Both the position numbers and the translations under genes were made by a program. A DNA stretch of 42,689 bases from assembly GCA_029009055.1 (NCBI GenBank), contig JAQXJR010000024.1, forward strand, positions 1 through 42,689. Reading direction: 5' to 3'. Positions 7,301 through 37,028 of the stretch are shown here, one piece after another. Origin of the DNA: Eubacteriales bacterium. GTDB lineage: Bacteria; Bacillota; Clostridia; Peptostreptococcales; Anaerovoracaceae. The first letter of the stretch is position 1. Each line of letters begins with the position of its first letter. The notes under the pieces were generated by a model, which was not told the DNA's origin, made no database searches, and was given only the letters and a program-made list of their open reading frames with translations.

Positions 7301-8945
7301 GGAAATACAGATTAAGATGGCTCAGGGAGCAAAGCCGGGCGAAGGCGGCCACCTTCCAGGTAAGAAAGTTTACCCTTGGATCGCTAAGACCCGCTACTCC
7401 ACTCCTGGAGTACCTCTTATATCGCCACCACCACATCACGACATTTACTCCATAGAAGACCTGGCTCAGCTGATCTACGACCTTAAGAACGCGAACAGAC
7501 ACGCCAGGATATCCGTGAAGCTGGTAGCTGAGAACGGTGTCGGCACCGTAGCCTGCGGTGTAGCTAAGGCGGGAGCTCAGGTCATCCTCATCTCCGGTTA
7601 TGACGGAGGCACGGGAGCCGCTCCTATGAGCTCCATATATAACGCGGGACTCCCTTGGGAGCTGGGTCTGTCAGAGACCCACAGATCTCTCGTGGAGAAC
7701 GGCCTGCGTCAGAGAGTCCGCCTGGAGACAGACGGTAAGCTGATGACAGGAAGAGACGTAGCCATAGCATGCATGCTGGGAGCTGAGGAATTCGGCTTCG
7801 CTACCGCTCCTCTCGTGACCATGGGTTGCCTGATGATGAGGGTCTGCAACCTGGATACCTGCCCTGCCGGCATAGCTACGCAGAACGAAGAACTGAGGAA
7901 GCGCTTTGCCGGTAAGCCTGAGTACGTCATGAATTTCATGCTCTATATAGCTGAAGAAGTGAGAGAGATCATGGCTAAGCTCGGCATCAGGACTATGGAT
8001 GAGCTGGTAGGAAGAACAGACCTACTCACAGCCAGACTAGGAAGAGTTACCAGCAGAGCCGATAAGATAGACATGTCATCCATATTGGGCGAGAGAGCAT
8101 ATCCGGTCCGCTTCGAGTCTAAAGACATATACGACTTCAAGCTCGAAAGCACGGCTGACCTGGCCGACCTGGTACCTGAGTTTAATGATAGCTTCGATAA
8201 GAAGGTCCCTCACACCAGCTCATATAAGGTATCCAGCACTAACAGGACGTTCGGAACCATCCTGGGTTCTGAGATAACCAGCAGATTCGGCCAGGATCTG
8301 GCTGACGACACATATAAAGTCAACTGCGAGGGATCAGCCGGCCAGTCATTCGGTGCCTTCATTCCTAAGGGCTTGACCCTGGATCTCACCGGAGACAGTA
8401 ACGACTACTTCGGTAAGGGACTCTCAGGAGGTAAGCTGATAGTTAAGCCGGCTTGCGAGAGCGTGTTCTCAGCTTCTGATAACATAGCGGTTGGAAATGT
8501 AGCTCTCTACGGAGCTACCAGCGGTAAGGCCTTCATAAACGGAAGAGCCGGCGAGCGTTTCTGCGTCAGGAACTCAGGAGCTACGGCTGTAGTCGAAGGA
8601 TGCGGCGACCACGGATGTGAATACATGACAGGCGGAACTGCCGTCATACTGGGAAGGACAGGCAAGAACTTCGCCGCCGGTATGAGCGGAGGCATAGCTT
8701 ACGTTCTGGACGAGGATCACGACTTCTACCTGAACCTGAATAAGGAAATGGTAGGCATGTATGAGATCACAGACCCTAAGGACGCTGAGGCGCTTAAGGG
8801 CATGATCAGGGAACATGTGGAAGCTACAGGTTCCGAATTTGGAAGTAATGTACTGAAAGATTTCGATAAATGGCTGCCTATGTTCAGGAAAATCATCCCT
8901 AACGATTACATGAAGGCTATGAAAGCGACGGCTAAGGAGAAATAA
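4374..8945 (+). CDS. gltB: Glutamate synthase large (alpha) subunit
   Basis: Transfers the amide of glutamine to 2-oxoglutarate, giving two glutamates (GOGAT). The 1523-residue product starts at the ATG at 4374, with AGGAG 6 nt upstream and 13 bp after asnB. A propeptide of about 51 residues precedes the catalytic cysteine in DIQDSCGIG (Cys52), which must become the N terminus by cleavage. The glutaminase domain is followed by central and FMN-binding synthase domains (ISGYDGGTGAAPMSS), a cysteine-rich [3Fe-4S] loop (MRVCNLDTCPAGIATQ) and a C-terminal GXGXG beta-helix with many glycine repeats. The stop lies one base before gltD, and the gltD ribosome binding site is inside the last gltB codons, indicating coupled translation of the two subunits. 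Confidence 0.96.
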   Translation: MDNQSNNFKGNSHKDESINSHQALPEYTDGQLREVREVRAALKDLADIQDSCGIGAVVNIDGKADHQTVSDALSIVEKLEHRAGKDATGKNGDGVGIMTQISDEFFRKVIAEMGLDPEKELGGERDFGVGMFFFPQDTLARRKAQKMFEVTCRKEGVRFITWRDVPVNTSILGQKALSAMPYICQCFVRRPEDIAKGIDFDRKLYVIRRIFEHSSEQTYIPSFSSRTIVYKGMLLVNQLRELYTDLQDPDYKSAMAMVHSRFSTNTMPSWRRAHPNRFILHNGEINTIRGNVDRMLAREETMHSPVLGSEMNKILPAISQASSDSAMLDNTLEFLVMNGMPLPLAVMVLIPEPWKNDISMSRSRKDLYRYYTTMMEPWDGPAAICFSDGDMVGAVLDRNGLRPARYYLTDDNRLILSSEVGVLDIPQEKIMRKAMLEPGRMLLVDLKAKRLIPDKEIKETYAAKQPYGEWLDMNLISLKELPAPNERTPQFTQDERDRLYKAFGYTYEDVSDVILKMAKDGSEIIASMGADIPVPVLSKRHQPLFNYFKQLFAQVTNPPIDAIRESIVTDTTVYAATDGDLLNEDASNCSVLQINNPILSDMDMLKIKNVKKPGFHVETVSLLYYTGTSLTRAVDDLFVEIERAYRKGANIIILSDRGVDENHVAVPSLLAVSAIEQYLIRTRKRTAISIILESAEPRDVHHFATLLGYGALAVNPYLAHALILEAIDKGMLNKNYSAAVESYDKAILSGIVKIASKMGISTLQSYQSAQIFEAVGIKQSVIEKYFTNTVSPVEGIGIEEMSKSVEWLHDHAFDPLGLSTDETLDSVGRHRLRSGRNTEDHMYSPEVLLTLRAATWSGNYDLFKKYSAMVDAKETPHTLRGLLDIKYDEKRSIPLEEVEPASEIVKRFKTGAMSYGSISEEAHTCLAIAMNRLGGKSNSGEGGEDPTRFGTDKNSAIKQVASGRFGVTSSYLMSAQEIQIKMAQGAKPGEGGHLPGKKVYPWIAKTRYSTPGVPLISPPPHHDIYSIEDLAQLIYDLKNANRHARISVKLVAENGVGTVACGVAKAGAQVILISGYDGGTGAAPMSSIYNAGLPWELGLSETHRSLVENGLRQRVRLETDGKLMTGRDVAIACMLGAEEFGFATAPLVTMGCLMMRVCNLDTCPAGIATQNEELRKRFAGKPEYVMNFMLYIAEEVREIMAKLGIRTMDELVGRTDLLTARLGRVTSRADKIDMSSILGERAYPVRFESKDIYDFKLESTADLADLVPEFNDSFDKKVPHTSSYKVSSTNRTFGTILGSEITSRFGQDLADDTYKVNCEGSAGQSFGAFIPKGLTLDLTGDSNDYFGKGLSGGKLIVKPACESVFSASDNIAVGNVALYGATSGKAFINGRAGERFCVRNSGATAVVEGCGDHGCEYMTGGTAVILGRTGKNFAAGMSGGIAYVLDEDHDFYLNLNKEMVGMYEITDPKDAEALKGMIREHVEATGSEFGSNVLKDFDKWLPMFRKIIPNDYMKAMKATAKEK

Positions 8946-8946
8946 A

Positions 8947-10467
8947 ATGGGAAAAAGCACGGGATTCATGGAGTTCAAGCGGGAAAACAACCCGTCTGAA
9001 GCGCCATTAGAGAGAATACGGAATTTTCTGGAATTCCACAGCCAGATAGATGAGGAAGAGCGCAGGAAGCAGGGCGCCAGGTGCATGAACTGCGGTCTGG
9101 CCTTCTGCCAGTCGGGAATCGAGATCGGCTCATCAACCACTGGCTGCCCGCTCCATAACCTCATCCCTGAATGGAACGATGAGCTGTATAACGGACAGTG
9201 GGATCAAGCCCTGGCCAGGCTCTTGAAAACGAATAATTTCCCTGAATTCACCGGACGTGTATGCCCGGCTCTCTGTGAGTCGGCCTGCACATGCGGCCTA
9301 TATGGCTCACCTGTTACGGTCAGGGAAAACGAGCTTTCTGTAATAGAGAAAGGTTTCCGCGAAGGCCATATGAAGGCTGACCCTCCTGAAGTAAGGAGCG
9401 GTAAGAGAGTAGCAGTCGTAGGCTCCGGTCCTTCAGGCCTCGCCTGCGCCGACATACTTAATAAGCGCGGCCATGAAGTCACAGTCTTCGAGCGTGATGA
9501 CAGACCGGGCGGCCTCCTGACATATGGCATTCCTAACATGAAGCTGGATAAGTCCATAGTGGAGCGCAGGATCCACCTCATGAAAGAAGAAGGCGTCATA
9601 TTCAAGACAGGAGCTGACATAGGAAACAACCTGGATGCCCAGACCATAATAAAGGACTATGACGCGACAGTCATCTGCTGCGGATCCAGAGAGCCGAGAG
9701 ACCTGAAAGTTCCCGGAAGGGACGCGGGCGGCGTCCTCTTCGCGGTGGACTTCCTGACAGATGTAACGAAGAAGCTGCTTGAAGCCAGAGAATCTGGCGA
9801 AGAGATAGACATTAAGTCCATGCTGAACGGTAAGGACGTAATAATCGTCGGAGGCGGCGACACAGGAAACGACTGCGTGGGAACATGCATCCGCCTGGGC
9901 TGTAAATCAGTCCATCAGCTGGTAAGAAAGCCTGAAGCTCCGCGCGAGCGCCAGGCAGATAACCCTTGGCCGGAAGTTTCTAAGGCGTCGAAGGTGGATT
10001 ACGGTCAGGAAGAGTCCCTGGCTGTGTTCGGCTCAGACCCTCGCGTCTACCAGACGAAGATAAAAGAGATAATAAAGGACGAAGACGGCCACATTAAGGC
10101 GGTCCAGACCATAATGTCCGAGCCTGAGAAGAACCCTGACGGCACCGTGATCACGAACGAGCGCGGTAAGGTCAGCATGGTGGAAGTCCCTGGAAGCGAG
10201 AAAGTGCTGCCTTGCGACCTCCTGCTGCTGGCGACCGGCTTCTCGGGCTGCCAGTCGTACATATTCGACCAGTTTGGCGTTAACACCTCCAAGCGCGGCT
10301 CAATCATTACCAAGGGTCAGGGCAGTTACGCGACTGACGTGGAGAAGGTCTTCACTGCAGGTGACGCTCACCGCGGCGCTTCTCTGGTGGTTTACGCCAT
10401 AGCTGAGGGTCGTGCCTGCGCTAAGGAAGTCGACGAGTACCTCATGGGCTACACGAACCTGATTTAG
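8947..10467 (+). CDS. gltD: Glutamate synthase small (beta) subunit, NAD(P)H-dependent
   Basis: Supplies electrons from NAD(P)H through FAD and iron-sulfur clusters to GltB. The 506-residue protein has the N-terminal cysteine-rich domain (ARCMNCGLAFCQ, GCPLHN, GRVCPALCESACTCG), the FAD-binding dinucleotide fold (VAVVGSGPSGLACADIL) and a second NAD(P)H fold (VIIVGGGDTGNDCVG), with the late ATGFSG and FTAGDAHRGASLVV segments. It starts one base after gltB, with AAGGAG in the gltB tail. It closes the asnB-gltB-gltD operon, and hairpins follow within 100 bp. Confidence 0.96.
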   Translation: MGKSTGFMEFKRENNPSEAPLERIRNFLEFHSQIDEEERRKQGARCMNCGLAFCQSGIEIGSSTTGCPLHNLIPEWNDELYNGQWDQALARLLKTNNFPEFTGRVCPALCESACTCGLYGSPVTVRENELSVIEKGFREGHMKADPPEVRSGKRVAVVGSGPSGLACADILNKRGHEVTVFERDDRPGGLLTYGIPNMKLDKSIVERRIHLMKEEGVIFKTGADIGNNLDAQTIIKDYDATVICCGSREPRDLKVPGRDAGGVLFAVDFLTDVTKKLLEARESGEEIDIKSMLNGKDVIIVGGGDTGNDCVGTCIRLGCKSVHQLVRKPEAPRERQADNPWPEVSKASKVDYGQEESLAVFGSDPRVYQTKIKEIIKDEDGHIKAVQTIMSEPEKNPDGTVITNERGKVSMVEVPGSEKVLPCDLLLLATGFSGCQSYIFDQFGVNTSKRGSIITKGQGSYATDVEKVFTAGDAHRGASLVVYAIAEGRACAKEVDEYLMGYTNLI

Positions 10468-10496
10468 TTCTATATAGCAAAGTAAAACCGTTGGAT

Positions 10497-10527
10497 CGGC
10501 TCTGCCAATAAGCCCCTGGCAGTGCCG
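10497..10527 (+). other. Intergenic hairpin after gltD
   Basis: Arms CGGCTCTGCCA (10497-10507) and TGGCAGTGCCG (10517-10527) pair with one mismatch and a 9-nt loop. No T-run follows, so it may protect or process the 3' end rather than terminate. Confidence 0.45.
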
Positions 10528-10563
10528 GCTATGAAAAAGCTTAATTCTTCCTTTCTAGATACG

Positions 10564-10618
10564 AAGGAGCCCCGGGAGCGTATGCCATTCTGGCACCTGC
10601 CCTCCGGGGCTCCTTTGA
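10564..10618 (+). terminator. Intrinsic terminator of the asnB-gltB-gltD operon
   Basis: Perfect 12-bp arms AAGGAGCCCCGG (10564-10575) and CCGGGGCTCCTT (10604-10615) enclose an inner TGCC/GGCA hairpin and are followed by the T-rich TTTGATTT. The T-rich tail is itself a tandem repeat. Confidence 0.75.
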
Positions 10619-10650
10619 TTTCGCTGTTTGATTTCGCTGTTTTGATTCTG
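10614..10650. repeat. 13-bp tandem repeat, 2.8 copies
   Basis: The unit TTTGATTTCGCTG occurs at 10614-10626 and 10627-10639, followed by a degenerate partial copy to 10650. It lies between the glt terminator and the end of the helicase gene. Confidence 0.7.
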
Positions 10651-10668
10651 TTCTGAACTGCGGATCCG

Positions 10669-13056
10669 TCACAGTACTAGTGACGGCGAGTCCGGCGGCA
10701 GCTTCCCCGCTCCATCAGCCCATTCGCTTATCCTCTTTTTCATACCCTTAATGTCCAGCACGCCGTAAGCGAAACCCTTACGCACCAGCTCCTGAGGCAG
10801 ATACTCGTCGTATTTATCGAATACAGGCACCTCATTAGGATAGACCAGTTCCAAAGGGTCGAATCCCTTAGCGGCCTCTTCCGCCAGTATGCTGAAGAAA
10901 GCCCTCTTAGGCACGTCCATGTTGAACATCATGTAGTAAGGGCGAACAGAGTTGAATCCCTTAAGTCCCAGTTTCTTACCGCATTTTATCTTTATGAACC
11001 GTTCCAGTGCCAGGAAAGCGTAGCTCCCCAGCCATGGGAGCAAGCAGTACATATTGCCGCCCATATCAAGAAGAGTCTGTGACGCGGCGCCGGAGAGCGC
11101 GGAAACCCTGCGGGCCTCAGCCAGTCTCGCCTTTGCGTGAGGAAGAAGATAAGGGTAATCCGTATCTTCACCCAGAGCCTGCTTCATCCTCTCCAGGATC
11201 TTCGTGTTTATATCGCCCGCGCAGTCGCCGAAGCAAGCCGGCACGCTCCCCTTCACAGGGTGGCAGTAGACCTCGTGGCGCTTAATATCCAGGTCCTCGA
11301 CCACCCATACATGACCGGCTATAGCGATCTTATCTCCAACCGGAGGCGGCTGGACTATGGTACCGATCTCCTGGGACTCGCACCTGACGCTGAACTCCTC
11401 GTTCTCCTGGAAAACAGCGAAAAACTTATAGTTATTCGCGACTTTTTCTCCAGTAAGGCCCACTATGAGCCCGCCGTTCTCTGTCCTCTGTATATGGTCT
11501 ATCTCCAGCAAATGGTTCAGCAGGCACTTATAGTCATCCTGACTTACATTCTTAAAATACGCGAGGCCCAGGACCCTGGATGCCAGCTCCGCCGGCGTCA
11601 TCTCCCCCTGGGAATACAGGGTGCTCATGGTCTGGTGATACAGGAGGCTGTAAGGCAGCCTCCCCTCTTCTGGCGGTTCTACCCAGCGTTCTTCTAAATA
11701 CAGCTGGACGAGAGAAATAGCCTGGAGCAGCTTCCAAGGTATGGTCTCCGGGAGCGGCGCTCTCGGCTCGGCGTGATCCTCACGGATGACGAAACACATC
11801 TCCTCCGGGCCGCCCCGCCTGCCTGTCCTTCCCATTCTCTGCAGGAAAGCCGAAACCGTGAATGGAGCGTCTATCTGATACGCCCTCTCCAGCTTTCCTA
11901 TGTCTATGCCAAGCTCCAGGGTCGCTGTCGCGCATGTCGTAAGCGGCAGGGAGTCTTCCTTCATAAGTTCCTCTGCGGACTCCCTGAATGAAGCCGACAG
12001 ATTTCCATGATGGATCAGAAAGCGGTCAGCCTCGTGCCTGTCTTCACAGTACCGTCTCATGGTCGTGGTGACAGCCTCGCACTCCTCCCTGGAATTAGAG
12101 AAGACCAGGCATTTCCTGCCCCGGGTGTGCTCGAAAATATAGGCGTAAGCCGGGTCAGCCATGTCAGGCGCCTTATCCGTTTTATCATCAGGTCCCAAAA
12201 CGCCGTAAGGGTCTAAAGACGGCGCGTCCTGGCCATCTGGACTCTCATAGTTATCCGCGCGAGAAGATTCGCCCTCGAGCGCTAAGTTTTCAGATCCAGT
12301 CTCTTCAGGCTTTCCGGGAGCGCCGCCTTTCTTCGGCTCCTCTCCAGCCTGAGGCGGCGTGATGAAGAAGTGCTCCATGGATAGCCGCCACTTCATGCCT
12401 TCAGACTGGACCTTAGGTATCCTGGTCTTTCGACCCGTTCCCGCTGAAAGCAGTCTGCCCACAGCTTCCGGATCCCCTATGGTCGCTGACAGCCCTATCC
12501 TCCTCGGATTCACGCCCGCCATCTTAGACAGCCTCTCTATCAAGCAAAGTGTCTGCCCGCCTCTATCTCCCCTGAGAAGCGAGTGTATCTCGTCTATTAC
12601 TATGAACCTTAAGTCTCCGAATAAGGCGGGTATCTGCCCGTGGCGGCGCATCATCATGGCTTCCAGGGATTCCGGCGTTATCTGCAATATGCCAGAAGGA
12701 TTCTTGACTAGCTTCTGCTTATGGGTCCTGGAGACGTCGCCGTGCCAGTGCCATACAGGAACGCCGGATTCCTCCAGCACATCGTTCAGCCTGTCGAACT
12801 GGTCATTTATCAAAGCCTTAAGCGGCGCTATGTATATGCAGCCCACAGAAGCCGGAGGATCTTCCGCCAGCATAGTTATTATCGGAAAGAAAGCCGCCTC
12901 CGTCTTACCCGAAGCCGTGGAAGCGGACAGGAGAAGGTTATCGTCACTGTTGAACAGCACATCGCCCGCCGCTGCCTGTACCGGCCTGAGAGAGTCCCAG
13001 CCTCTTTCGTATATATAATCCTGTATAAAAGGCGCGTATTGCGAGAAAATATCCAT
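10669..13056 (-). CDS. Lhr/BrxHI-like superfamily 2 helicase
   Basis: A 795-residue DEAD/DEAH-type helicase. Visible motifs are Walker A SASTASGKTE (about 44-53), APLKALINDQ, TPESLEAM, the DEIH box (155-158), SAT (190-192), CLVFSNSREE, TLELGIDIG and motif VI QRMGRTGRRGG (about 406-416). The region after the helicase core (VVEDLDIKRHEVYCHPV) resembles Lhr/BrxHI helicases. The linker between the two RecA lobes (about 235-302) is a long acidic, low-complexity insert. The start at 13056 has AAAGG 7 nt upstream. It is the last gene of a four-gene minus-strand operon behind a BrxD-like ATPase, with a 105-bp gap that holds a GC-rich hairpin. In BREX-type systems such helicases act with DUF2791 ATPases. 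The exact substrate is unknown. Confidence 0.85.
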   Translation of the reverse strand: MDIFSQYAPFIQDYIYERGWDSLRPVQAAAGDVLFNSDDNLLLSASTASGKTEAAFFPIITMLAEDPPASVGCIYIAPLKALINDQFDRLNDVLEESGVPVWHWHGDVSRTHKQKLVKNPSGILQITPESLEAMMMRRHGQIPALFGDLRFIVIDEIHSLLRGDRGGQTLCLIERLSKMAGVNPRRIGLSATIGDPEAVGRLLSAGTGRKTRIPKVQSEGMKWRLSMEHFFITPPQAGEEPKKGGAPGKPEETGSENLALEGESSRADNYESPDGQDAPSLDPYGVLGPDDKTDKAPDMADPAYAYIFEHTRGRKCLVFSNSREECEAVTTTMRRYCEDRHEADRFLIHHGNLSASFRESAEELMKEDSLPLTTCATATLELGIDIGKLERAYQIDAPFTVSAFLQRMGRTGRRGGPEEMCFVIREDHAEPRAPLPETIPWKLLQAISLVQLYLEERWVEPPEEGRLPYSLLYHQTMSTLYSQGEMTPAELASRVLGLAYFKNVSQDDYKCLLNHLLEIDHIQRTENGGLIVGLTGEKVANNYKFFAVFQENEEFSVRCESQEIGTIVQPPPVGDKIAIAGHVWVVEDLDIKRHEVYCHPVKGSVPACFGDCAGDINTKILERMKQALGEDTDYPYLLPHAKARLAEARRVSALSGAASQTLLDMGGNMYCLLPWLGSYAFLALERFIKIKCGKKLGLKGFNSVRPYYMMFNMDVPKRAFFSILAEEAAKGFDPLELVYPNEVPVFDKYDEYLPQELVRKGFAYGVLDIKGMKKRISEWADGAGKLPPDSPSLVL

Positions 13057-13102
13057 TTATGTGCCTTTCCCTTGTTATATAGCAAATCGCGAATTGCCCG
13101 CC

Positions 13103-13128
13103 TCGCCTGAGCTGCCCTGCGGCAGGCG
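13103..13128 (-). other. GC-rich intercistronic hairpin between the ATPase and helicase genes
   Basis: On the minus strand CGCCTG and CAGGCG flank an inner CTGCC/GGGCAG. Without a T-run it is more likely a processing or stability element than a terminator. Confidence 0.4.
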
Positions 13129-13161
13129 CCCGGCCTAAACAGCGATATAACTTTGCGTTAT

Positions 13162-14505
13162 CTATAAAGTGAATTCTGTGAACTCATCGTCCTTCTTATC
13201 GCTCACGGCGTCGGACTCAGCGTAGGAGAACTCATCTGACTTAAGCAGGCCGCGAACATCCATGTCCGGGTTCTGGTACAGGATATCGAGAAGCTCTATG
13301 AAATCCCTGATCACCTCTCTAGGCGTTATCCTGGAATCAGCCCCTATCCTGCCGTATTCCACCTTAATGAAGGCTATGAGGTCGTCATCCGTAAGCTTTC
13401 GCTCGTAGCCGTATAGACCGGCATGCATGTCAGCCAGCTTCTCCGTGAGAACCATCATCTCCTCTGACGTCAGCGGCTCCAGCCTTATGACCGGCGCCAG
13501 CATGTCCCTGGCTCCCTCGCGGCTGAACTTCCCCTCGCGCAGCCTGGAACTCAGCGCCTCGTAGCTATAGACTCCGCGCCTCCTGTCCTCCATGCACTGA
13601 GGAGTTCCGCTCATGATGATGCCTATGTAATGGGCTTTCCCCTGGAGCGTATCGTTATACATGGTGAGGATCTTCTCGTAATTGTTATTCCTGGTCACGC
13701 TGTTAGGGATCTTATATATGTTCACCAGCTCGTCCACCAGGACCAGCATCCCCTTATAACCGGACTGAACTAGGAAATACGCGAAAAGCTTCATGTACTC
13801 GTACCAGTCGTCATCTCCGATTATGACCCTGACACCCAGGTCCCGCCTGGCTTCCGTCTTATTCTGATACTCGCCCCGGAACCACTTTAGCACCTTAGCC
13901 TTAGTATCGTCATCATCCTCCACGTAAGACCTATAGTAGAGCGTCAGAAGCTCAGCGAAATCGAAGCCGTGGACCATTTCGTCCATAGCCCTTATGACCC
14001 CGAATATCCTCTTCTCGACCTCAGCCGGAAAAGCCGGGTCCGCTTGGTTAAGGCCTGTATCCTCGACTGTCTTCGCCTGCACGCCGCTTATCCACTTATC
14101 GAGCACCAGCATCAGCGCCCCGCCCTCAGGCTTCGTCTTAACAGACAGGTTCCCGATAAGTTCCCTGTAAGTCGCCAGGCCCTGCCCCTTATTTCCCGTC
14201 AACCTTCTCTCCGGCGACAGGTCAGCGTCCACGACGGCGAATCCCCTGTCCATGGCGTAATTTCTTATCGTCTGCAGCAGGAAACTCTTACCGCTCCCGT
14301 ACCTTCCGACTATGAACCTGAAAGACGCTCCGCCCTCGCCGACTATATCCACGTCATGCAGCAAAGCCTCTATCTCGTTTTTCCTGCCCACAGTAACGTA
14401 AGGCAGCCCTATCCTAGGAACTACTCCGCCCTTCAGCGAATTCAGCACGGTCTGCGCCACACGCCTCGGCACCCGCTTCTTCTTTGCTAAAGAATTATCA
14501 CCCAA
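13162..14505 (-). CDS. BrxD-like P-loop ATPase (DUF2791 family)
   Basis: The product, about 447 residues, has an AAA/STAND-like ATPase core: Walker A VGRYGSGKSF (about 66-75), Walker B GMLVLVDELVNI (about 252-263) and the N-terminal GVVPRIGLPYVTVGRKNEI typical of the BREX BrxD/DUF2791 family. The open frame reaches a GTG at 14520 that overlaps the TerB-gene stop as GTGA. I prefer the TTG at 14505 because AGGGGAG lies 5 nt before it and the GTG has no clear binding site. Either way the gene is translationally coupled to the TerB gene. It probably powers or loads the downstream helicase. No methylase or PglZ-type partner is nearby, so it is not a BREX system as defined. Confidence 0.82.
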   Translation of the reverse strand: MGDNSLAKKKRVPRRVAQTVLNSLKGGVVPRIGLPYVTVGRKNEIEALLHDVDIVGEGGASFRFIVGRYGSGKSFLLQTIRNYAMDRGFAVVDADLSPERRLTGNKGQGLATYRELIGNLSVKTKPEGGALMLVLDKWISGVQAKTVEDTGLNQADPAFPAEVEKRIFGVIRAMDEMVHGFDFAELLTLYYRSYVEDDDDTKAKVLKWFRGEYQNKTEARRDLGVRVIIGDDDWYEYMKLFAYFLVQSGYKGMLVLVDELVNIYKIPNSVTRNNNYEKILTMYNDTLQGKAHYIGIIMSGTPQCMEDRRRGVYSYEALSSRLREGKFSREGARDMLAPVIRLEPLTSEEMMVLTEKLADMHAGLYGYERKLTDDDLIAFIKVEYGRIGADSRITPREVIRDFIELLDILYQNPDMDVRGLLKSDEFSYAESDAVSDKKDDEFTEFTL

Positions 14506-25591: not shown

Positions 25592-26920
25592 TTACTTTAC
25601 TTTTACAGATTTCACCTTAGACCATCCGGAATAATAATTCTTACCAGAAACCTTCCTTACCGTACGGACCTTGAAATAGTATTTCTTATGCCTCTTCAGC
25701 TTCTTTATGGTCTTCTTATATGTTTTCTTCGAGCTGATTTTAACAGTCTTAGATGACTTAAAGCTCTTCTTCGTCGAATATTTTATTTGATATCCTGTGC
25801 ACTTAGAGACCTTCTTCCAGGTAATCGTCACAGTCTTCTTAGCCTTGCTCTTAAGTGACTTTATGGATGTCTTATATGTCTTCACTTTAACAGCGGCTGG
25901 CTTCTGAACAGGAACAGTTACTGTAAGGTGGTACTCATACCATTTAGCCTTTTTCTTACTGTAAGCCGCCACAGGGATGACATTCTTACCCTCAGCCAGG
26001 CTGACCGGGATAGAGAAGAAGTGCTGTTCGGATGTGATGCCCTCTTTATCAGTATATGAGACCAGCTCAGTCTCTACCTGTCTATACGGATTCCAATAAG
26101 CGTTATTTCCGGATCCCACATAAACCTTAGTATACCCGGTGCCGGCAGTCCTGAACTTAAGTGTCTGCTCCCCATTCTTTACAGTAAGTATGGCCTCACT
26201 TACAGTAGAATCGTCATTACCGGCATAAGCGGTGAAATATCCCTCACCTACTGCGCCTACAGTGTAATTTCCGTCCTTTAGCTTTGCTGCCTTAGGATTC
26301 TTAACTAACGCGTCTGCCGCCTCTGTTACTGCCGCGAACGCTCCTGATGTCTCATCCGGCTTAGCGTCATCAGCGAGCGTGACGCGCAGCTTATATGGGC
26401 TATACCAAAGCTTCATGGTAGCTGTGCCGCCGCCATAAGCTCTGAATGTCATATCTTCGTTGATCTTAACCGGCATCTTCACCCGGCAGATCGCCTGTTT
26501 ATCAGGATCCTTCACCGCGGCGTATCTGTTCTCCTCAGAAACAGCGTTTTCATCCGTCTTATTTTCATTAGTGATCTCGCCGTAGTTTACCGCGAAGTGC
26601 ATGTATGATGACTTAGCGTTCGCTTCTTCAGCAGGATCCGCCTTATGTGTCTGGACAGCTATTACAGCGTAAGCTTTACCGCCAACCACCTCTACCTTCT
26701 CGCAATAAAAGCTTGGAGAAGTAGTCCTTACCTTATTCATATTAAGGTCTGTCTCATGATTCGGATCTACGTTATAGATCCCATCCGTGTAAGTAGTGGA
26801 ATTATCGAAATCAGCTGTACTATCAGCCGCGGCGCTGTCGTCCGCGAATGCCCCGATCGTCATGGTCATGGCCATCACGAGGGAAAGCAGCAGCACGAGC
26901 GCTTTTCTAATGCTTTTCAT
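25592..26920 (-). CDS. Secreted surface protein with NEAT-like beta domains and Lys-rich fibronectin III tail
   Basis: A 442-residue protein with a signal peptide (about 1-27, ending IGAFA). Two beta-sandwich-like regions follow (about 40-190 and 215-345). The second opens LKDGNYTVGAVGEGYFTAY and ends with a KWYEYHLTV strand, reminiscent of heme-binding NEAT domains but not a safe match. The last 95 residues are a very Lys-rich fibronectin type III module ending WSKVKSVKVK at the stop. A similar module ends the surface protein at 32249. There is no LPXTG or membrane anchor, so attachment may be by charge. AGGAG lies 9 nt before the ATG at 26920, with TATAAT at 26986-26991. Transcription ends at 25533-25574. 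Confidence 0.75.
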   Translation of the reverse strand: MKSIRKALVLLLSLVMAMTMTIGAFADDSAAADSTADFDNSTTYTDGIYNVDPNHETDLNMNKVRTTSPSFYCEKVEVVGGKAYAVIAVQTHKADPAEEANAKSSYMHFAVNYGEITNENKTDENAVSEENRYAAVKDPDKQAICRVKMPVKINEDMTFRAYGGGTATMKLWYSPYKLRVTLADDAKPDETSGAFAAVTEAADALVKNPKAAKLKDGNYTVGAVGEGYFTAYAGNDDSTVSEAILTVKNGEQTLKFRTAGTGYTKVYVGSGNNAYWNPYRQVETELVSYTDKEGITSEQHFFSIPVSLAEGKNVIPVAAYSKKKAKWYEYHLTVTVPVQKPAAVKVKTYKTSIKSLKSKAKKTVTITWKKVSKCTGYQIKYSTKKSFKSSKTVKISSKKTYKKTIKKLKRHKKYYFKVRTVRKVSGKNYYSGWSKVKSVKVK

Positions 26921-26942
26921 TAATGGATTCTCCTTTCTAATA

Positions 26943-26991
26943 AGCCCTGACTCCCACGAAATCACTTTAGGGCTCAAACGGATTTATTATA
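26943..26991 (-). promoter_or_regulatory. -10 box and 5' hairpin of the secreted protein gene
   Basis: TATAAT on the minus strand at 26986-26991, with a poor -35, is followed by AGCCCT/AGGGCT arms (26969-26974 and 26943-26948) that would fold at the 5' end of the mRNA. Confidence 0.45.
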
Positions 26992-31561: not shown

Positions 31562-31834
31562 TTCGGTAACCCTTTTTCCGTTTTCTTACGCTAGAGTTTA
31601 CGCCTTAAGTTGGTCATTTCGGGGGCGGAACGATGAATCGGCAGTGGATGGTTTATAGATATTTTTTGTCACTTTCATAGCAAAGTCAGCCTTAATATGT
31701 AAGGTCCCTTCATATTTGTTAATTTAATATCGAACATGTGATGTTTGGGTTGAAAAATACCGCCGCGAGTATTATCATATAAAAGCTAATAGAGTTAGAT
31801 TCTATTAACATCATTCAACTTTAATATGACTACT
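31562..31834. other. Divergent promoter region between ABC operon and riboswitch
   Basis: No gene is seen. It must hold the promoters of the minus-strand ABC operon and the plus-strand cobalamin leader, but no pair of boxes stands out. An inverted repeat TAATAGA (31787-31793)/TCTATTA (31801-31807) lies just before the aptamer. Confidence 0.4.
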
Positions 31835-32127
31835 TAGAGACATCGCTAACGGAAAGGGGTCTGAATCCCCTACTGCACCAGCAACCGTGTGTTCCTGATG
31901 GAACGAGCCGGGAGACGAGCGGGGGTCTCGCTCTGTACCGCCTGGGGACGCGGGAGAGAGCGTATCGTGGATGAGATCCGCGGCAGAGGCTGTCACGCTA
32001 GATCGGCGCGGCTGTCCTGCGGAATACCATCTTCGAGGTAGTAAGAGCTGCCTTCAGCGGGCAGCGCGGCAGGGATATTTCTTCATGCCATTAAGTTCGT
32101 TTTTTACGCCCCCTGGGGCGTTTTTTT
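31835..32127 (+). promoter_or_regulatory. Cobalamin riboswitch with long expression platform
   Basis: The leader carries the conserved cobalamin (B12) aptamer elements in order: GGAAAGGGGTCTGAATCCCC, CTGCACCAGCAACCG (the GCAAC core), a GTTCC/GGAAC hairpin and the B12-box-like GAGCCGGGAGAC. The paired ends GAGAC (31837-31841) and GTCTC (31925-31929) close the core. About 175 nt of further GC-rich hairpins lead to a perfect terminator. By family knowledge, B12 binding should terminate transcription, so the downstream surface, FMN and iron-sulfur genes would be expressed when cobalamin is scarce. Confidence 0.82.
32106..32127 (+). terminator. Riboswitch expression-platform terminator
   Basis: ACGCCCC (32106-32112) and GGGGCGT (32115-32121) with a 2-nt gap, followed by a run of T to 32127. 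Confidence 0.85.
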
Positions 32128-32163
32128 ATTGCTCTGCCGGCTTTCAGGCACCCTTGTGGGCTT

Positions 32164-32208
32164 TCCGGAGTTTCACAGGCTCCGGATTTAGGGCGCCCGC
32201 CGGCGGGC
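32164..32208 (+). other. Two further hairpins before the surface protein gene
   Basis: TCCGGAG/CTCCGGA (32164-32170, 32180-32186) and the 14-bp palindrome GCCCGCCGGCGGGC (32195-32208) follow the riboswitch terminator and end 30 nt before the ribosome binding site. They may stabilise the mRNA or tune translation. Confidence 0.5.
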
Positions 32209-32248
32209 AGAAAAAAATATGCATTGTTATATTAATAAGGAGGACTAA

Positions 32249-34102
32249 ATGAGTACATCTCTCAGAAAGAAAGTCCTGTCTATAGTCCTGGCAGCTGCCA
32301 TGATTATACCGACAGGCTCAGCCGTATTCGCTGATACACAGCCGGCTGAAACTACAGCGCCTACGGCTGTGAGCGTCACGCTTAGCGGAACCGATATGGC
32401 GACTGTTAAACTCGAAGGAATAACAGAAGACGTAGCTAAGGATGTCACATCTGTTACCCTCGATGGTACAGAACTCGCTAAGGGAACAGACTATACTGTC
32501 GCAGCCGGAAGCATTAAAATAGCTGCCGCTAAGCTTGATAAAGTTCCTAAGCGTAAGAACACATTCAACCTCGTTATAAAGTCCACTGGCCACGATGATG
32601 TAAACGCAGAGCTCACAGTAATAAACTACGGAGCTGAAACTCTTTACGTTAGACACTTGGATAAAGACGGAAACGTACTAGCAGAGAAGTCATTCACTAT
32701 GGACGAAATAAAGTCCATGTCCAACGTTAAGAATCAGACATACCAGTCATTCTGCAGCATGAGAGGCGTTACGAGCTTTAAGGCAACAGGAGTAAAGCTC
32801 AGCACAATCCTTGAAAAAGCCGGAATGACAGATGCTTTCAAGGAAGGTACGGAAATCCTAGTCCGCACTAACGACGGTAATAAGGCATCTACTAAGAATG
32901 ATGATGACTCAGATAACAGCTCGTACTACCAGAGGGGAAAATATTCATATAAGTTCCTGACAGAGCCTAGATACACATTCACAGATATCTACAGCAACAA
33001 GAATGCTGACCTCTCTAGTAAGGTCGTATCTGATATCCAGGCATACCTGAACGCAGTCAACAATGACAAAGAACATGTTGACACCTTCGAAGCGACTGTA
33101 AAGAAGGACCTCGGATCAGCTAAAAGGGAGCATGTAGATCCTGTAATAGCTTACGAATTCGCTGAGAAACAGCTCAGGAAGGATCCTACAGACTTAACTA
33201 ACGACAGCTATGGAAGGACACAGAAAGACAGAGCTTTCAGACTGCTGTTCGGTCTCGCCATGGATGATAATGACCCTTCATCCGCAAGAAAAAAAGAGCA
33301 GACTACATTCTCTATCACATACGCTATCTACGGGATCGATATCATAGACACAGAAAAGGACGTACGTGATACTACGGAGCTCGAAAAAACTATAAAGCAA
33401 GCTAAGGCATTAAAGGCTGAAGATTACACTTCAGATTCTTGGGACGCACTTCAGGAATCCCTCGAGAACGCTGAAGCACTCGTAGCAGACTTAGCGCACC
33501 ACACAACGACTATGGAAGATGTAACTAAGGCTGACGAAGCCCTTAAGGCGGCTATGAAAGCACTGGTTCCAGTAAATCCACAGCCACAGCCTGAGCAGAA
33601 GATCGCTGTTAAGAGCATAAAACTCGCCAAGACATCATTTAAATATAACGGCAAAGCAGTTAAACTTACTGTTAAGGCTGTCGATGAGAATGGTAAGGCT
33701 GTAGCAAGCTCTAACTACACTGTAAGCAAAGTAAAAGCTAAGAAAGTCGGAAAATACTCTGTAACTGTTACTATGAAGGGTAACTACACAGGCTCTAAGA
33801 AGCTTTCATTCACTATCGTACCTGCCGGAACATCTCTTAAGAGCGTTAAGGCTGGAAAGAAGAGCGCTACAGTAACATGGAAGAAGAACACTAAAGAGAC
33901 TTCAGGCTATCAGATCCGCTTCGTTAAGGGTAAGAAGACAGCTAAGACAGTAACAGTTTCATCCAATAAGAAGACTAAAGCTGTCGTTAAGAAGCTTTCA
34001 TCTAAGAAGAAGTACAGTGTATCTATCCGCACATATAAGAAAGTCGGTAAGACGAAGTTCTACTCCTCTTGGTCTAAGGCAAAGACAGTAAAGGTAAAGT
34101 AA
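32249..34102 (+). CDS. Secreted surface protein with FIVAR and Lys-rich fibronectin III domains
   Basis: A 617-residue exported protein: signal peptide (about 1-28, ending AVFA), a beta domain resembling Hb-interacting or Ig-like modules (SVTLDGTELAKGTDYTV, 40-125), a domain of about 200 residues with an YVRHLDKDGNVLAEKSFTMD start that faintly recalls sulfite-oxidase-like folds seen in Clostridial surface proteins (not certain), a FIVAR-type helical module (about 365-435), an Ig-like domain and a terminal Lys-rich fibronectin module ending WSKAKTVKVK. AGGAGG lies 6 nt before the ATG. It is the first gene under the cobalamin riboswitch, so a role in acquiring or replacing B12 at the surface is inferred. 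Its base composition is more AT-rich than its neighbours. Confidence 0.82.
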   Translation: MSTSLRKKVLSIVLAAAMIIPTGSAVFADTQPAETTAPTAVSVTLSGTDMATVKLEGITEDVAKDVTSVTLDGTELAKGTDYTVAAGSIKIAAAKLDKVPKRKNTFNLVIKSTGHDDVNAELTVINYGAETLYVRHLDKDGNVLAEKSFTMDEIKSMSNVKNQTYQSFCSMRGVTSFKATGVKLSTILEKAGMTDAFKEGTEILVRTNDGNKASTKNDDDSDNSSYYQRGKYSYKFLTEPRYTFTDIYSNKNADLSSKVVSDIQAYLNAVNNDKEHVDTFEATVKKDLGSAKREHVDPVIAYEFAEKQLRKDPTDLTNDSYGRTQKDRAFRLLFGLAMDDNDPSSARKKEQTTFSITYAIYGIDIIDTEKDVRDTTELEKTIKQAKALKAEDYTSDSWDALQESLENAEALVADLAHHTTTMEDVTKADEALKAAMKALVPVNPQPQPEQKIAVKSIKLAKTSFKYNGKAVKLTVKAVDENGKAVASSNYTVSKVKAKKVGKYSVTVTMKGNYTGSKKLSFTIVPAGTSLKSVKAGKKSATVTWKKNTKETSGYQIRFVKGKKTAKTVTVSSNKKTKAVVKKLSSKKKYSVSIRTYKKVGKTKFYSSWSKAKTVKVK

Positions 34103-34142
34103 TAAACCAACTGAAGCCGGGAATAACGGAAGGAATGTCTAA

Positions 34143-35267
34143 ATGAATCATAAGATAAAGGAAATCTTCACACTTATGCCGGGCATATTGACGGTAGCGA
34201 TAGTAGCCGGAATGCTCAACTTCAACGCCCCATACGCCGACCTGGACCAAAAGCAGGTCGACGCGCTTAATAAAGAGCTGACAGCGGCAGCAGCAGAAGC
34301 CGGAAATACTCCATCTGCTGTCCGGAAGCCTAAGATAAACAGGTCCGCGTCCAGCTCAGCTAAGAAAGCGGGCGGAACAGGCATTTCTACCGTTTCCACC
34401 GACGGCAGCGCTAAGATAGTACATAAGGCGAAGCTTAAGAAGAATCAGAAATATAAGGATGGCACATACACGGGCTCAGGAGCCGGCTTCAACGGCGGCA
34501 CCACGACAGTACGCGTGACTATTAAGAAGGGTAAGATAAAATCCATCGCTGTCATATCTAACGGCGACACGCCTTCATACTTCAGCCGCGCCAGAGTCTT
34601 ACTCAGCCGTATGGTGAAGCAGCAAAGCACGAACGTAGATGCCGTCTCCGGCGCTACATTCAGCTCCAGAGGTATCATCACAGCTACAGAAAACGCCTTA
34701 GAAAAGGCAGTCACTAAGTCTTCAAAAAAATCAAAAAAGGCAAAAAAGACTGGCTGCAAGTGCGGTAAGAAGAACTGCAACTGCGATAAGCACTGCACAT
34801 GCGATGATAATGGCGGGAACGGCAAGAAGCCAAATAATCCTTCTAAGCCGGATGATCCGGTGACACCAGTCGATCCAACGAATCCTGATGATCCGACAAA
34901 CCCTGATAACCCGTCAGACCCCGGCAACGACCAGCCTTATGAGCCTAAGACTTATAAGAACGGCACATTCACTGGCAGCAATAAAGTAGCTTCATATGGC
35001 TATAATATGTATGTAGAAGTCACCATTAAGGACGATAAGATCGTTTCCATTAAGACGACGAACGATTCCACCAGTTCTTCCAATGACGACTATATAGAAA
35101 TGGCTAAGACACTTATCGCTAAGATCCTGAATATCCAGAGCGCTGAGGATAAGTACGTAGATAAAGTGACGGGCGCTACATATAGTTCCAATGCCCTTAA
35201 GAGGGCGGTCAGAAAAGCGCTCAGCGCTTCTAAAGCGGCGCTTGCCGCTGATAAGGCAGCGAGCTGA
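34143..35267 (+). CDS. Membrane-anchored protein with two FMN-binding domains and a Cys cluster
   Basis: A 374-residue extracytoplasmic protein with an N-terminal membrane anchor (about 10-28). Two FMN-binding domains (about 103-190 and 270-365) each carry the covalent attachment motif: DAVSGATFS (Thr172) and DKVTGATYS (Thr346), where ApbE-type transferases link FMN through phosphate to Thr. Between them, residues 205-220 hold six Cys and one His in tight CxC spacing (CKCGKKNCNCDKHCTC), followed by a Pro/Asp/Asn repeat linker. The cluster could bind a metal or a further redox centre. AAGGA precedes the ATG. It sits between the riboswitch-controlled surface protein and a second FMN protein, in one apparent operon. 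No ApbE gene is in the window. Confidence 0.88.
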   Translation: MNHKIKEIFTLMPGILTVAIVAGMLNFNAPYADLDQKQVDALNKELTAAAAEAGNTPSAVRKPKINRSASSSAKKAGGTGISTVSTDGSAKIVHKAKLKKNQKYKDGTYTGSGAGFNGGTTTVRVTIKKGKIKSIAVISNGDTPSYFSRARVLLSRMVKQQSTNVDAVSGATFSSRGIITATENALEKAVTKSSKKSKKAKKTGCKCGKKNCNCDKHCTCDDNGGNGKKPNNPSKPDDPVTPVDPTNPDDPTNPDNPSDPGNDQPYEPKTYKNGTFTGSNKVASYGYNMYVEVTIKDDKIVSIKTTNDSTSSSNDDYIEMAKTLIAKILNIQSAEDKYVDKVTGATYSSNALKRAVRKALSASKAALAADKAAS

Positions 35268-35329
35268 TACCGCGAGGAACTGAAACATACAACTTTGCTA
35301 AATAAACACTCTGAATTCAGGATAAGGTA

Positions 35330-35794
35330 ATGAAAAACAACTATTTTTGGATAAAAGTATTAGATGTAGTGCTCATCATCGGCGCATTGCTGTTCTACAA
35401 TCAGTACGCCGGCTACCATAAGTCGATGCAGGCTGCCAATTCTAAGGTGAAAGCCTACGCTGACCAGGTAAAACAGATAAGAAAGAGCTCGTCAGCGAAG
35501 TCCGGCTCGGCTTCCGGGAGCGCTAAGTATAAGGATGGCACGTACACAGGTAGCGCCAGAGGATACGGCGGGACCATCACGGTCAAGGTGACCGTAGAGC
35601 AGGACACGATCACAGATATTAACGTAACAGACGCTTCTCACGAAACAGCTGAATATTACAACTCCGCGGTGAAGGTCCTGGATAATATACTGAACAGCCA
35701 GACGACTGATGTAGCAACGGTCTCAGGCGCCACCTACTCTTCTACCGGCTTAAAGAACGCTGTAAAAGCCGCTCTGTCTAAAGCGAAGAAGTAG
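35330..35794 (+). CDS. Membrane-anchored single FMN-binding protein
   Basis: A 154-residue protein with an N-terminal membrane helix (about 9-28) and one extracytoplasmic FMN-binding domain (about 66-150): YKDGTYTGSARGYGG, a beta core and the attachment motif ATVSGATYS with acceptor Thr135. It resembles the small flavinylated subunits of extracytosolic electron-transfer systems. AAGG lies just before the ATG. It follows the double-FMN gene by 62 bp and precedes the polyferredoxin by 9 bp, which fits a chain of quinol or NADH electrons passing through membrane iron-sulfur centres to flavins outside. Confidence 0.9.
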   Translation: MKNNYFWIKVLDVVLIIGALLFYNQYAGYHKSMQAANSKVKAYADQVKQIRKSSSAKSGSASGSAKYKDGTYTGSARGYGGTITVKVTVEQDTITDINVTDASHETAEYYNSAVKVLDNILNSQTTDVATVSGATYSSTGLKNAVKAALSKAKK

Positions 35795-35803
35795 GAGGCC
35801 GGC

Positions 35804-36919
35804 ATGGATAATAAAAATAAGAAATCCGGCGCGGCACTAAGCAGGCAGACGAAATCTGTCCTGCTGAACCGCGCTGTCCAGCTGGCCTTCTTCATACTGG
35901 CACCGGGCCTCTACTCATCCGCTTTCAATGGTGTGAAATACCTGGCGACGCAGATGGGAAACACGGATGTCCTGGAATTCACGCCTTTCATAGCCATACT
36001 TATAACATTGCTGGTCTACACGATAGTATTCGGCAGGTTCTTCTGCGGCTATGCCTGCGCTTTCGGCTTCCTGGGAGACGTCATGTACGACGCCTCATCC
36101 GCCGTTCAGAAGAAGGTCAGAGGTCACGTGGCCAAACTCCCGACCGGGGCTCTAAAAACGCTCATGAAGGTGAAATACTTCGTTCTGGCCGGTATCCTTA
36201 TCCTCTGCTTCGTCGGAAGCTACGATAAGGTCTCTAAATTCGACCCATGGGAGATATTCGCTTTCTTCCGCGCCGGAGACTTCAGCCTGACCGGACGCAC
36301 GGCAGGCTTCATAGTTTTGATCGCCATAATGGTCGGCATGTGCCTGGTCCGCCGCTTCTTCTGCCTCTTCCTCTGCCCTATGGGAGCCTGCTTTAGCTTC
36401 ATGCCTGTGCTGCCATGGTCATCTATGGGGAGGAAGCCGGCTAAGTGCGCGGGTAAGTGCCACCAGTGCGAACTGAACTGCCCGACAGCTTACTTTTACA
36501 GCCATGCGCAGGTTACGAATTCAGATTCAGCAAAGCCATCCGCGGCATCAGGCTCCGCCTCTCCCGTCGAGTCCGAAAGCTCTGACTCGGCAGAGACAAA
36601 AGAAAACGCTAAGGACCGCGATGTCCAGGTATCACCTGAAGTCGGTATAGACGGAAAGATTCGTAACATAGGAGAAGGCGAATGCATATACTGCATGCGC
36701 TGCGTCAGCGGCTGCCCCGTTCATAACGCAGGCGCCGGAAGGTCCATGCTGAAGCTGAGCGATATAAATACTCAGGCGGCGGCAGATCTTAACGGACCTG
36801 AGAAAGCTAAGGCTATGGCAGCTGACAGACAGGGGATCTGTGGCAACGAATGGTATCTGGTATTAGCCAGAGCCGCCATCCTCTACCTGGCTGTATTCTT
36901 AGTTCAGAAATACATATAG
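35804..36919 (+). CDS. NosR/NapH/YccM-type membrane 4Fe-4S protein
   Basis: A 371-residue polytopic membrane protein. Membrane Cys motifs are GRFFCGYACAFGFLGD and FCLFLCPMGACFS, typical of the NosR/NapH/YccM polyferredoxin group. Two [4Fe-4S] ligand sets follow: Cys215/219/222/226 and Cys294/297/300/304 (CIYCMRCVSGCP), the second after a Ser/Ala/Glu-rich insert (about 228-275). A hydrophobic C terminus (350-370) may be a last helix. AGGAGG precedes the ATG by 5 nt. It is the last gene of the cobalamin-regulated cluster, closed by a strong terminator. It probably carries electrons across the membrane to the FMN proteins. Donor and acceptor are unknown. Confidence 0.9.
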   Translation: MDNKNKKSGAALSRQTKSVLLNRAVQLAFFILAPGLYSSAFNGVKYLATQMGNTDVLEFTPFIAILITLLVYTIVFGRFFCGYACAFGFLGDVMYDASSAVQKKVRGHVAKLPTGALKTLMKVKYFVLAGILILCFVGSYDKVSKFDPWEIFAFFRAGDFSLTGRTAGFIVLIAIMVGMCLVRRFFCLFLCPMGACFSFMPVLPWSSMGRKPAKCAGKCHQCELNCPTAYFYSHAQVTNSDSAKPSAASGSASPVESESSDSAETKENAKDRDVQVSPEVGIDGKIRNIGEGECIYCMRCVSGCPVHNAGAGRSMLKLSDINTQAAADLNGPEKAKAMAADRQGICGNEWYLVLARAAILYLAVFLVQKYI

Positions 36920-36990: not shown

Positions 36991-37028
36991 AAAAAGGATG
37001 CTCCCCGTCGATGGAGCATCCTTTTTTA
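36991..37028. terminator. Bidirectional intrinsic terminator
   Basis: Perfect 14-bp arms AAAAAGGATGCTCC (36991-37004) and GGAGCATCCTTTTT (37013-37026) close both the plus-strand FMN/iron-sulfur operon and the minus-strand hslO-adh unit. Confidence 0.9.

Follow-up and report, generated by a model that had tools for sequence, protein, structure and literature searches.

We analyzed a 42,689-nucleotide (nt) stretch of DNA from an Eubacteriales bacterium (contig JAQXJR010000024.1, here called the window, meaning the whole stretch) and found a cobalamin (vitamin B12) riboswitch aptamer in front of four genes on the same strand, which encode a secreted surface protein, two membrane-anchored flavin mononucleotide (FMN)-binding proteins and a NapH-type polyferredoxin. 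A comparison of nine genomes strongly indicates that such riboswitches stand ahead of FMN_bind genes more often than chance placement would produce. The aptamer, the gene cluster, its domain content, the genus-wide linkage and the content of the regulon are all seen in the sequence. In this gut-type bacterium the genes are probably on when B12 is scarce, and the flavin/iron-sulfur wire that they encode probably helps to capture B12-like molecules through reduction at the surface. We give roughly an even chance to the full reading, in which B12 represses the operon, the operon serves to acquire corrinoids at the surface, and an outward branch acts as a flavin reductase. The features of the region are as follows (aa, amino acids).

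31750-31778 (+), promoter-like site TTGAAA-17-TATCAT, 5' of the aptamer (consensus scan, 10/12 matches)
31843-31921 (+), short-type cobalamin riboswitch aptamer core (RF00174, covariance model R1, core covariation, shared short type)
32106-32121 (+), terminator-like hairpin and T tract, candidate expression platform (terminator scan)
32249-34102 (+), 617-aa secreted surface protein with HID (PF07550), a 246-aa domain, FIVAR-like and fn3 regions (Pfam)
34143-35267 (+), 374-aa membrane-anchored protein with two FMN_bind domains, attachment Thr172 and Thr346 (Pfam, motif and hydrophobic-window scan)
35330-35794 (+), 154-aa membrane-anchored single-FMN_bind protein, attachment Thr135 (Pfam, motif and hydrophobic-window scan)
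35804-36919 (+), 371-aa NapH-type membrane polyferredoxin with 16 Cys (Pfam Fer4_5; invariant Cys in alignment)
36991-37026 (+), terminator-like hairpin of 14 pairs at the 3' end of the cluster (terminator scan)

The cobalamin aptamer and its leader

A preliminary description of this region, made from the letters alone, had placed a cobalamin aptamer before the four genes, and a check with the Rfam covariance model upheld it. RF00174 matched positions 31851-31916 (+) with 32.0 bits, marginally above the gathering score of 31.5. A fast whole-window Rfam scan did not list this match, and the aptamer is thus a weak, short member of RF00174. The covariance model R1, trained on aptamers of the genus, scored it at 46.9 bits with the window aptamer itself in the training set. 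The segments CUAACGGAA, AGCA-n-CCGU and CGG-n-AGACGAG were unchanged in all seven short-type aptamers (five genomes, window included). When 21 aptamers of the genus, again with that of the window, were aligned, eight core pairs were 99.4% paired and compensatory changes were evident, with 44 two-sided changes at these pairs versus a shuffled mean of 11.6; the closing core pair was G-C in 14 aptamers, C-G in six and U-A in one. Ligand binding and regulation by the window aptamer are predicted. A loose regular expression tried for long aptamers was uninformative.

The terminator that had been described behind the aptamer stood as a terminator-like hairpin and T tract at 32106-32121, a candidate for the switching platform. 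The scan found six terminator-like sites versus 7.6 in shuffles, so this match alone is no evidence of function. Leader fold stability was not unusual (z -0.83) and no alternative pairing was brought out, and the expression platform is kept as a candidate. Promoter-like sites numbered 12 versus 9.4 expected in shuffles, and the match at 31750-31778 does not by itself indicate function.

The four-gene cluster

The four genes are separated by gaps of 40, 62 and 9 nt. On the + strand between 32130 and 36990, where a terminator could set FMN genes apart from the riboswitch, the scan lists one weak terminator-like match, at 35369 within a gene, and no other. The first protein had been described as a FIVAR/fibronectin surface protein. 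Pfam supported fn3, placed FIVAR barely below its cut-off (29.0 versus 29.2) and added Shr-like_HID, which like the 246-aa domain had gone unnoted. The 246-aa domain gave only a weak PF00174 (molybdopterin-domain) match below the cut-off (E 0.032) and no useful match among PDB sequences. Its strong relatives, among the sequences searched, occur only in genomes G009 and G016; six of 297 genomes of the order gave matches, strong ones in the window's own and G016 and weak ones in four. On a G009 contig (L139), two FMN genes and NapH adjoin a 35%-identical HID protein with the same N-terminal architecture. Since G009 holds the same set of HID and FMN-FMN-NapH genes, the surface protein is a repeated partner of the cassette, though its domain is rare.

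The two membrane-anchored FMN-binding proteins and their three attachment Thr were borne out, each Thr (172 and 346 in the first protein, 135 in the second) sitting in an S/T-G-A-T motif. A Cys-rich linker with six Cys in 16 residues separates the two FMN_bind domains of the first protein and is absent from the G009 (partial) and G016 homologues compared. The polyferredoxin is of the NapH type, as described before, with Fer4_5 and 16 Cys; its NCBIfam napH-type match was below the cut-off. The cluster has the composition of a NapH-like flavinylated system: an iron-sulfur membrane protein of PF12801 stands among flavinylation-associated genes, with FMN_bind domains with the ApbE attachment motif and ApbE in the genome. 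This single ApbE gene lies at G000:C36 (G000 being the window's genome) on a contig that also has RnfG, and the FMN proteins would be flavinylated in vivo.

The FMN_bind and NapH domains are on separate genes and do not form a fusion of the NosR/PceC type. This bears on whether the cassette could supply electrons, in the manner of PceC/RdhC, to a corrinoid enzyme outside the cytosol, for example a reductive dehalogenase, which we consider highly improbable. PceC is indeed a flavinylated NapH-type protein, as described in part of PMC8238504. Against such a role stand the separate FMN and NapH genes and the lack of a dehalogenase gene in the window by Pfam and by eye, PF13486 not having been searched genome-wide.

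Elsewhere in the window, the sole match of a search for NEAT domains was at 25592-26977 (-), a secreted protein of 461 aa that carries fn3 and a pair of NEAT-type domains, with no riboswitch found nearby. Structure prediction gave a mean predicted local distance difference test (pLDDT) value of 37 for this protein and 39 for the region with HID and the 246-aa domain.

Riboswitch linkage of FMN_bind loci within the genus

The genus considered is that of [Eubacterium] minutum (Anaerovoracaceae), and linkage was counted over nine of its genomes. These held 57 aptamer matches, 45 above the Rfam cut-off and 12 below it (the match C7 of the window's genome included). Seven of the 15 non-Rnf FMN_bind loci had a same-strand riboswitch within 16 kb upstream (binomial P 3e-8 versus uniform placement), and six had one within 5 kb (binomial P 9e-10 versus uniform placement). 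None of the seven Rnf FMN_bind loci was behind a B12 riboswitch. We assigned frames to Rnf by their length (201-212 aa), and among the 15 non-Rnf loci G016:C1:1277 fell below the Pfam cut-off; the script scans omitted a duplicate of G013 (L074) and snippet loci. The counts strongly indicate linkage above chance, and the earlier proposal that an outward flavin chain is under B12 control is well supported by this linkage in related genomes.

Five cassettes found in the genus have separate FMN-FMN-NapH genes. Those of the window's genome, G005 and G016 are linked to a riboswitch, that of G013 is unlinked, and that of G009 is uninformative because its contig stops within the first FMN gene. The riboswitch of the G016 operon (L009) is followed by four surface proteins, two of them with DUF4430, and then by FMN, FMN and NapH. 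In the G005 operon (L010), it is followed by FMN, FMN, NapH and ApbE and then by a 645-aa NEAT-FMN_bind-NEAT protein (4846-6783, +); this ApbE gene is the only one found in that genome (88% complete). A NapH tree with 82 rows placed the linked cassettes of the three species on three branches separated by supported forks, and their aptamers were by reading of three types. The simplest reading is that B12 control was recruited separately in the three species, with loss in relatives as the alternative.

One further NapH gene, in G006 (L138 7969-9144, -), stands ~7 kb downstream of a riboswitch, separated from it by a Nik/Opp-type transporter and preceded by a seemingly interrupted FMN frame. It was not counted as linked.

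Other riboswitches of the window's genome and the wider regulon

The window's genome has four cobalamin riboswitches, three of which stand ahead of FMN_bind proteins; among these three, C7 reached 30.8 bits and thus stayed below 31.5. The riboswitch at C34 is followed by a NEAT-FMN_bind-NEAT protein (L006 4065-5963, +), and NEAT domains in this genome stand at both the C7 and the C34 riboswitch loci. NEAT and FMN_bind domains were found on one protein in two genomes.

The fourth riboswitch (L005 7802-7999, -; G000:C37) scored 119 bits and lies between rplQ and pcrA with a terminator-like sequence by reading; no corrinoid gene and no gene ahead of pcrA was found there. In G013 and G016, a riboswitch beside pcrA drives a DUF4430 protein of 179-183 aa, and that gene may therefore have been lost in the window's genome. 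Tandem cobalamin aptamers, apparently before one gene, were seen in G016 and G005 (L019 3485-3610 and 3911-4035, -; L023 5969-6145 and 6611-6748, -). The C34 contig also has two adjacent matches of the cyclic di-GMP-I type (L006 11877-12109, +) 5' of a secreted transglutaminase-like protein, with 58.7 bits for RF01051 and 49.4 bits for RF03167, the latter below its cut-off of 59.

For 55 of the 57 aptamers we listed the genes that follow; a few aptamers gave no downstream frame by the open reading frame rule. Many targets are large secreted proteins, judged by reading their N-termini, and the others include corrinoid transport genes, cob-type genes and some unrelated genes. Many surface proteins of the genus end in fn3 tails that are related to one another. 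A domain of ~115 aa in regulon surface proteins resembles solved NEAT domains (PDB, E 1e-5, mainly over the N-terminal two thirds). In the nine genomes, a locus was counted as linked when a riboswitch lay no more than 10 kb upstream. By this measure 20 of 30 NEAT proteins were linked, a count that is favored because the NEAT model used (A5) was trained largely on riboswitch-linked members. Linkage was also found for six of ten FecCD permeases (10 of 11 rows used, one below the cut-off dropped) and for 13 of 34 DUF4430 proteins (34 of 36 rows used; the G009 and G011 rows dropped, two below the cut-off kept). None of 30 B12-binding-domain proteins was linked (30 of 33 rows used, three below the cut-off dropped). 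At one locus (L192), the riboswitch is followed by a surface protein, a NEAT protein, BtuF, BtuC, BtuD, CobT and CobU (BtuF, BtuD and CobU assigned by eye), and at another (L167) by a surface protein with four NEAT domains, Peripla_BP_2, FecCD and an ABC protein. The window's genome has a FecCD permease with an adjacent ABC ATPase, and a MetH-like protein. The co-occurrence with ApbE and corrinoid transport genes that the preliminary description had suggested looking for is seen in the ApbE gene of the G005 riboswitch operon and in the BtuF/BtuC/BtuD-type genes of the regulon.

This content also bears on what the flavin chain acts on. It might serve the handling of metal or heme, by reductive release of cobalt or iron or by heme capture, with B12 control reflecting a need for cobalt and corrinoids not being the substrate. 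We regard this as unlikely, if credible. Pfam names and PDB matches tie NEAT and HID domains to heme capture, the Nik/Opp-type transporter of G006, identified by reading, is behind a riboswitch, and NEAT proteins in G010 and G005 are near the start of clusters that by reading contain cob-type genes. Against it, NEAT proteins stand directly 5' of BtuF-BtuC-BtuD-type genes, with CobT in two cases, one by reading, and DUF4430, a domain of transcobalamin-type B12 binders, belongs to the regulon; the domain is placed in the C-terminal region of these binders in part of PMC4350170.

The preliminary description had offered two functional readings, surface handling of corrinoids and a B12-independent replacement for a respiratory step. 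The former is favored because the regulon contains NEAT, BtuF/BtuC/BtuD-type, CobT and DUF4430 proteins, and ApbE in the G005 riboswitch operon. The latter, in which the operon would stand in for a respiratory or redox reaction dependent on a B12 enzyme, as metE does for metH, is improbable. Control of isozymes by B12 riboswitches is general knowledge and would fit it. The operon has no terminal oxidoreductase and shows no alternative enzyme for a B12-dependent one, the B12-binding-domain proteins were all unlinked, and the sister targets of the riboswitches include many surface proteins and transporters, all of which argue against it.

NapH cassettes outside the genus

The NapH loci compared were the best 80 of 463 polyferredoxin matches, mostly from Clostridia and for the most part from taxa other than the genus (1.29 Mb). 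In 79 of them (without an E. minutum duplicate) an FMN_bind gene was near NapH in 76 and an ApbE gene in 59. R1 detected no B12 riboswitch upstream in the best 80 of 463 loci, eight of which were rechecked with Rfam; R1 was built from aptamers of the genus, and other aptamer types could escape it. The sequence upstream of NapH exceeded 5 kb in 63 of the 79 loci and 9 kb in 51, and the remaining loci are weak tests of linkage because their upstream sequence is short. The sole riboswitch that R1 found in these 80 loci lies downstream of the cassette, in L061, where the stretch 5163-14121 (+) holds an FMN-NapH-ApbE cluster together with a surface protein of the PBP-Tp47 type and, at the 3' end, a cobalamin riboswitch. 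FMN_bind was searched in 20 family genomes of other genera, and linkage was looked at in one of them, G026, where none of five non-Rnf FMN_bind loci was linked to a riboswitch. The conserved order of riboswitch, FMN genes and NapH proposed for relatives therefore stood within the genus and did not extend to G026, to the 80 NapH loci or to the E. minutum copy.

The cassette might be a general system for extracellular electron transfer (EET), an electron sink that came under B12 control, with the surface proteins as unrelated adhesins. We consider this decidedly unlikely. In gut Clostridia the ApbE-FMN-FMN-NapH arrangement is found widely with no B12 riboswitch, and the shared fn3 tails on so many surface proteins also fit. 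On the other side, linked cassettes occur on three branches of the NapH tree in one genus, NEAT and FMN_bind are joined in one protein, and Rnf is unlinked.

Proposed function

In the reading that we prefer, surface corrinoid acquisition under B12 repression, the riboswitch would permit transcription when cobalamin is low. The NapH-type polyferredoxin would draw electrons from a cytosolic or membrane donor and move them across the membrane, from where they would pass to the single-FMN protein and then to the multi-FMN protein. The FMN proteins would deliver them to secreted surface proteins of the regulon, that is, the HID/fn3 protein of the window and, from two further riboswitch loci in the same genome, the NEAT-FMN_bind-NEAT and NEAT proteins. 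The cobalt of a captured corrinoid would go from Co(III) to Co(II), its axial ligand would be loosened, and the reduced corrinoid would be handed to a BtuCD-type transporter. We infer the direction of electron flow, the corrinoid as ligand and reduction as the purpose of the flavins from the genes and their surroundings; the surface proteins would accordingly both bind corrinoids and reduce their cobalt. More specifically, and only tentatively, NEAT domains may have been turned to corrinoids, with covalent FMN wired to NapH reducing the bound cobalt and triggering hand-off to BtuCD, which would make a B12-dedicated relay in a Gram-positive-type wall.

Several observations weigh against surface corrinoid acquisition as the function of the operon. 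The operon of the window has no transporter gene and, by the NEAT-domain search, no NEAT domain, and no riboswitch was detected at the FecCD/ABC genes of the window's own genome. Within 7.7 kb upstream of the E. minutum cassette (L008) no riboswitch was detected, and linkage is so far confined to one genus. Members of a single genus do not sample independently, and surface proteins of whatever kind make up many of the riboswitch targets. The FMN_bind domain at C7 (L007 8676-10733, +) carries Ser where the attachment Thr would be (ITGAS), the NEAT-FMN_bind-NEAT protein of G005 lacks a recognisable attachment motif, and the bias noted for the NEAT count belongs here as well.

If the proposal is true, it would give a physiological role to a flavinylated NapH system, of which gut Clostridia have many without an assigned substrate, show surface B12 capture by Gram-positive-type gut bacteria, and add electron transfer through flavin wiring to vitamin uptake as a new step. 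The genus-wide B12 regulon (NEAT, HID, DUF4430, FMN_bind, BtuFCD and CobT) is a compact set of proteins for binding and reduction assays.

Comparison with known systems

In Listeria-type flavin-based EET, an anchored multi-FMN surface protein is the outward electron carrier. The window cassette shares such a carrier and differs by NapH; Ndh2, EetA and EetB were not found in the window by reading, and the genome was not searched for them. With PceC/RdhC and NosR the cassette shares a NapH-type polyferredoxin and FMN, but its FMN domains are on separate proteins and no reductase gene is adjacent. The Isd/Shr heme relays have NEAT and Shr-like HID domains on surface proteins, and NEAT proteins ahead of an ABC importer. 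The regulon of the genus resembles them in all three respects. It differs in its cobalamin riboswitches, its BtuFCD/CobT-type neighbors and its FMN_bind domains, and the window operon has no NEAT domain.

BtuG of Bacteroides, as presented in part of PMC6143338, captures B12 at the surface of gut bacteria, and as in our case surface proteins are encoded with B12 transport genes. The present system is from Bacillota, and has NEAT, HID and DUF4430 domains and a flavin electron chain. As far as that part of the source goes, BtuG is a precedent for surface B12 capture and not for the electron chain.

The closest likeness is to the NapH-like flavinylated systems of Meheust et al. (2021), in which, as given in part of PMC8238504, systems fall into two classes, one of them with separate genes (539 of 2465 clusters), and the reactions are mostly left unknown. 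The window cassette agrees with them in having a Fer4_5 polyferredoxin beside FMN_bind proteins with ApbE motifs on separate genes, and differs in its cobalamin riboswitch and in the HID, NEAT and DUF4430 surface proteins of its regulon. The words 'cobalamin' and 'riboswitch' are absent from the main texts of PMC8238504 and PMC11334425, and a literature search gave, among the matches listed, no paper linking a B12 riboswitch or NEAT partners to such flavin cassettes. The cassette type is thus already known, and its B12 control and NEAT partners are, among those matches, apparently new.

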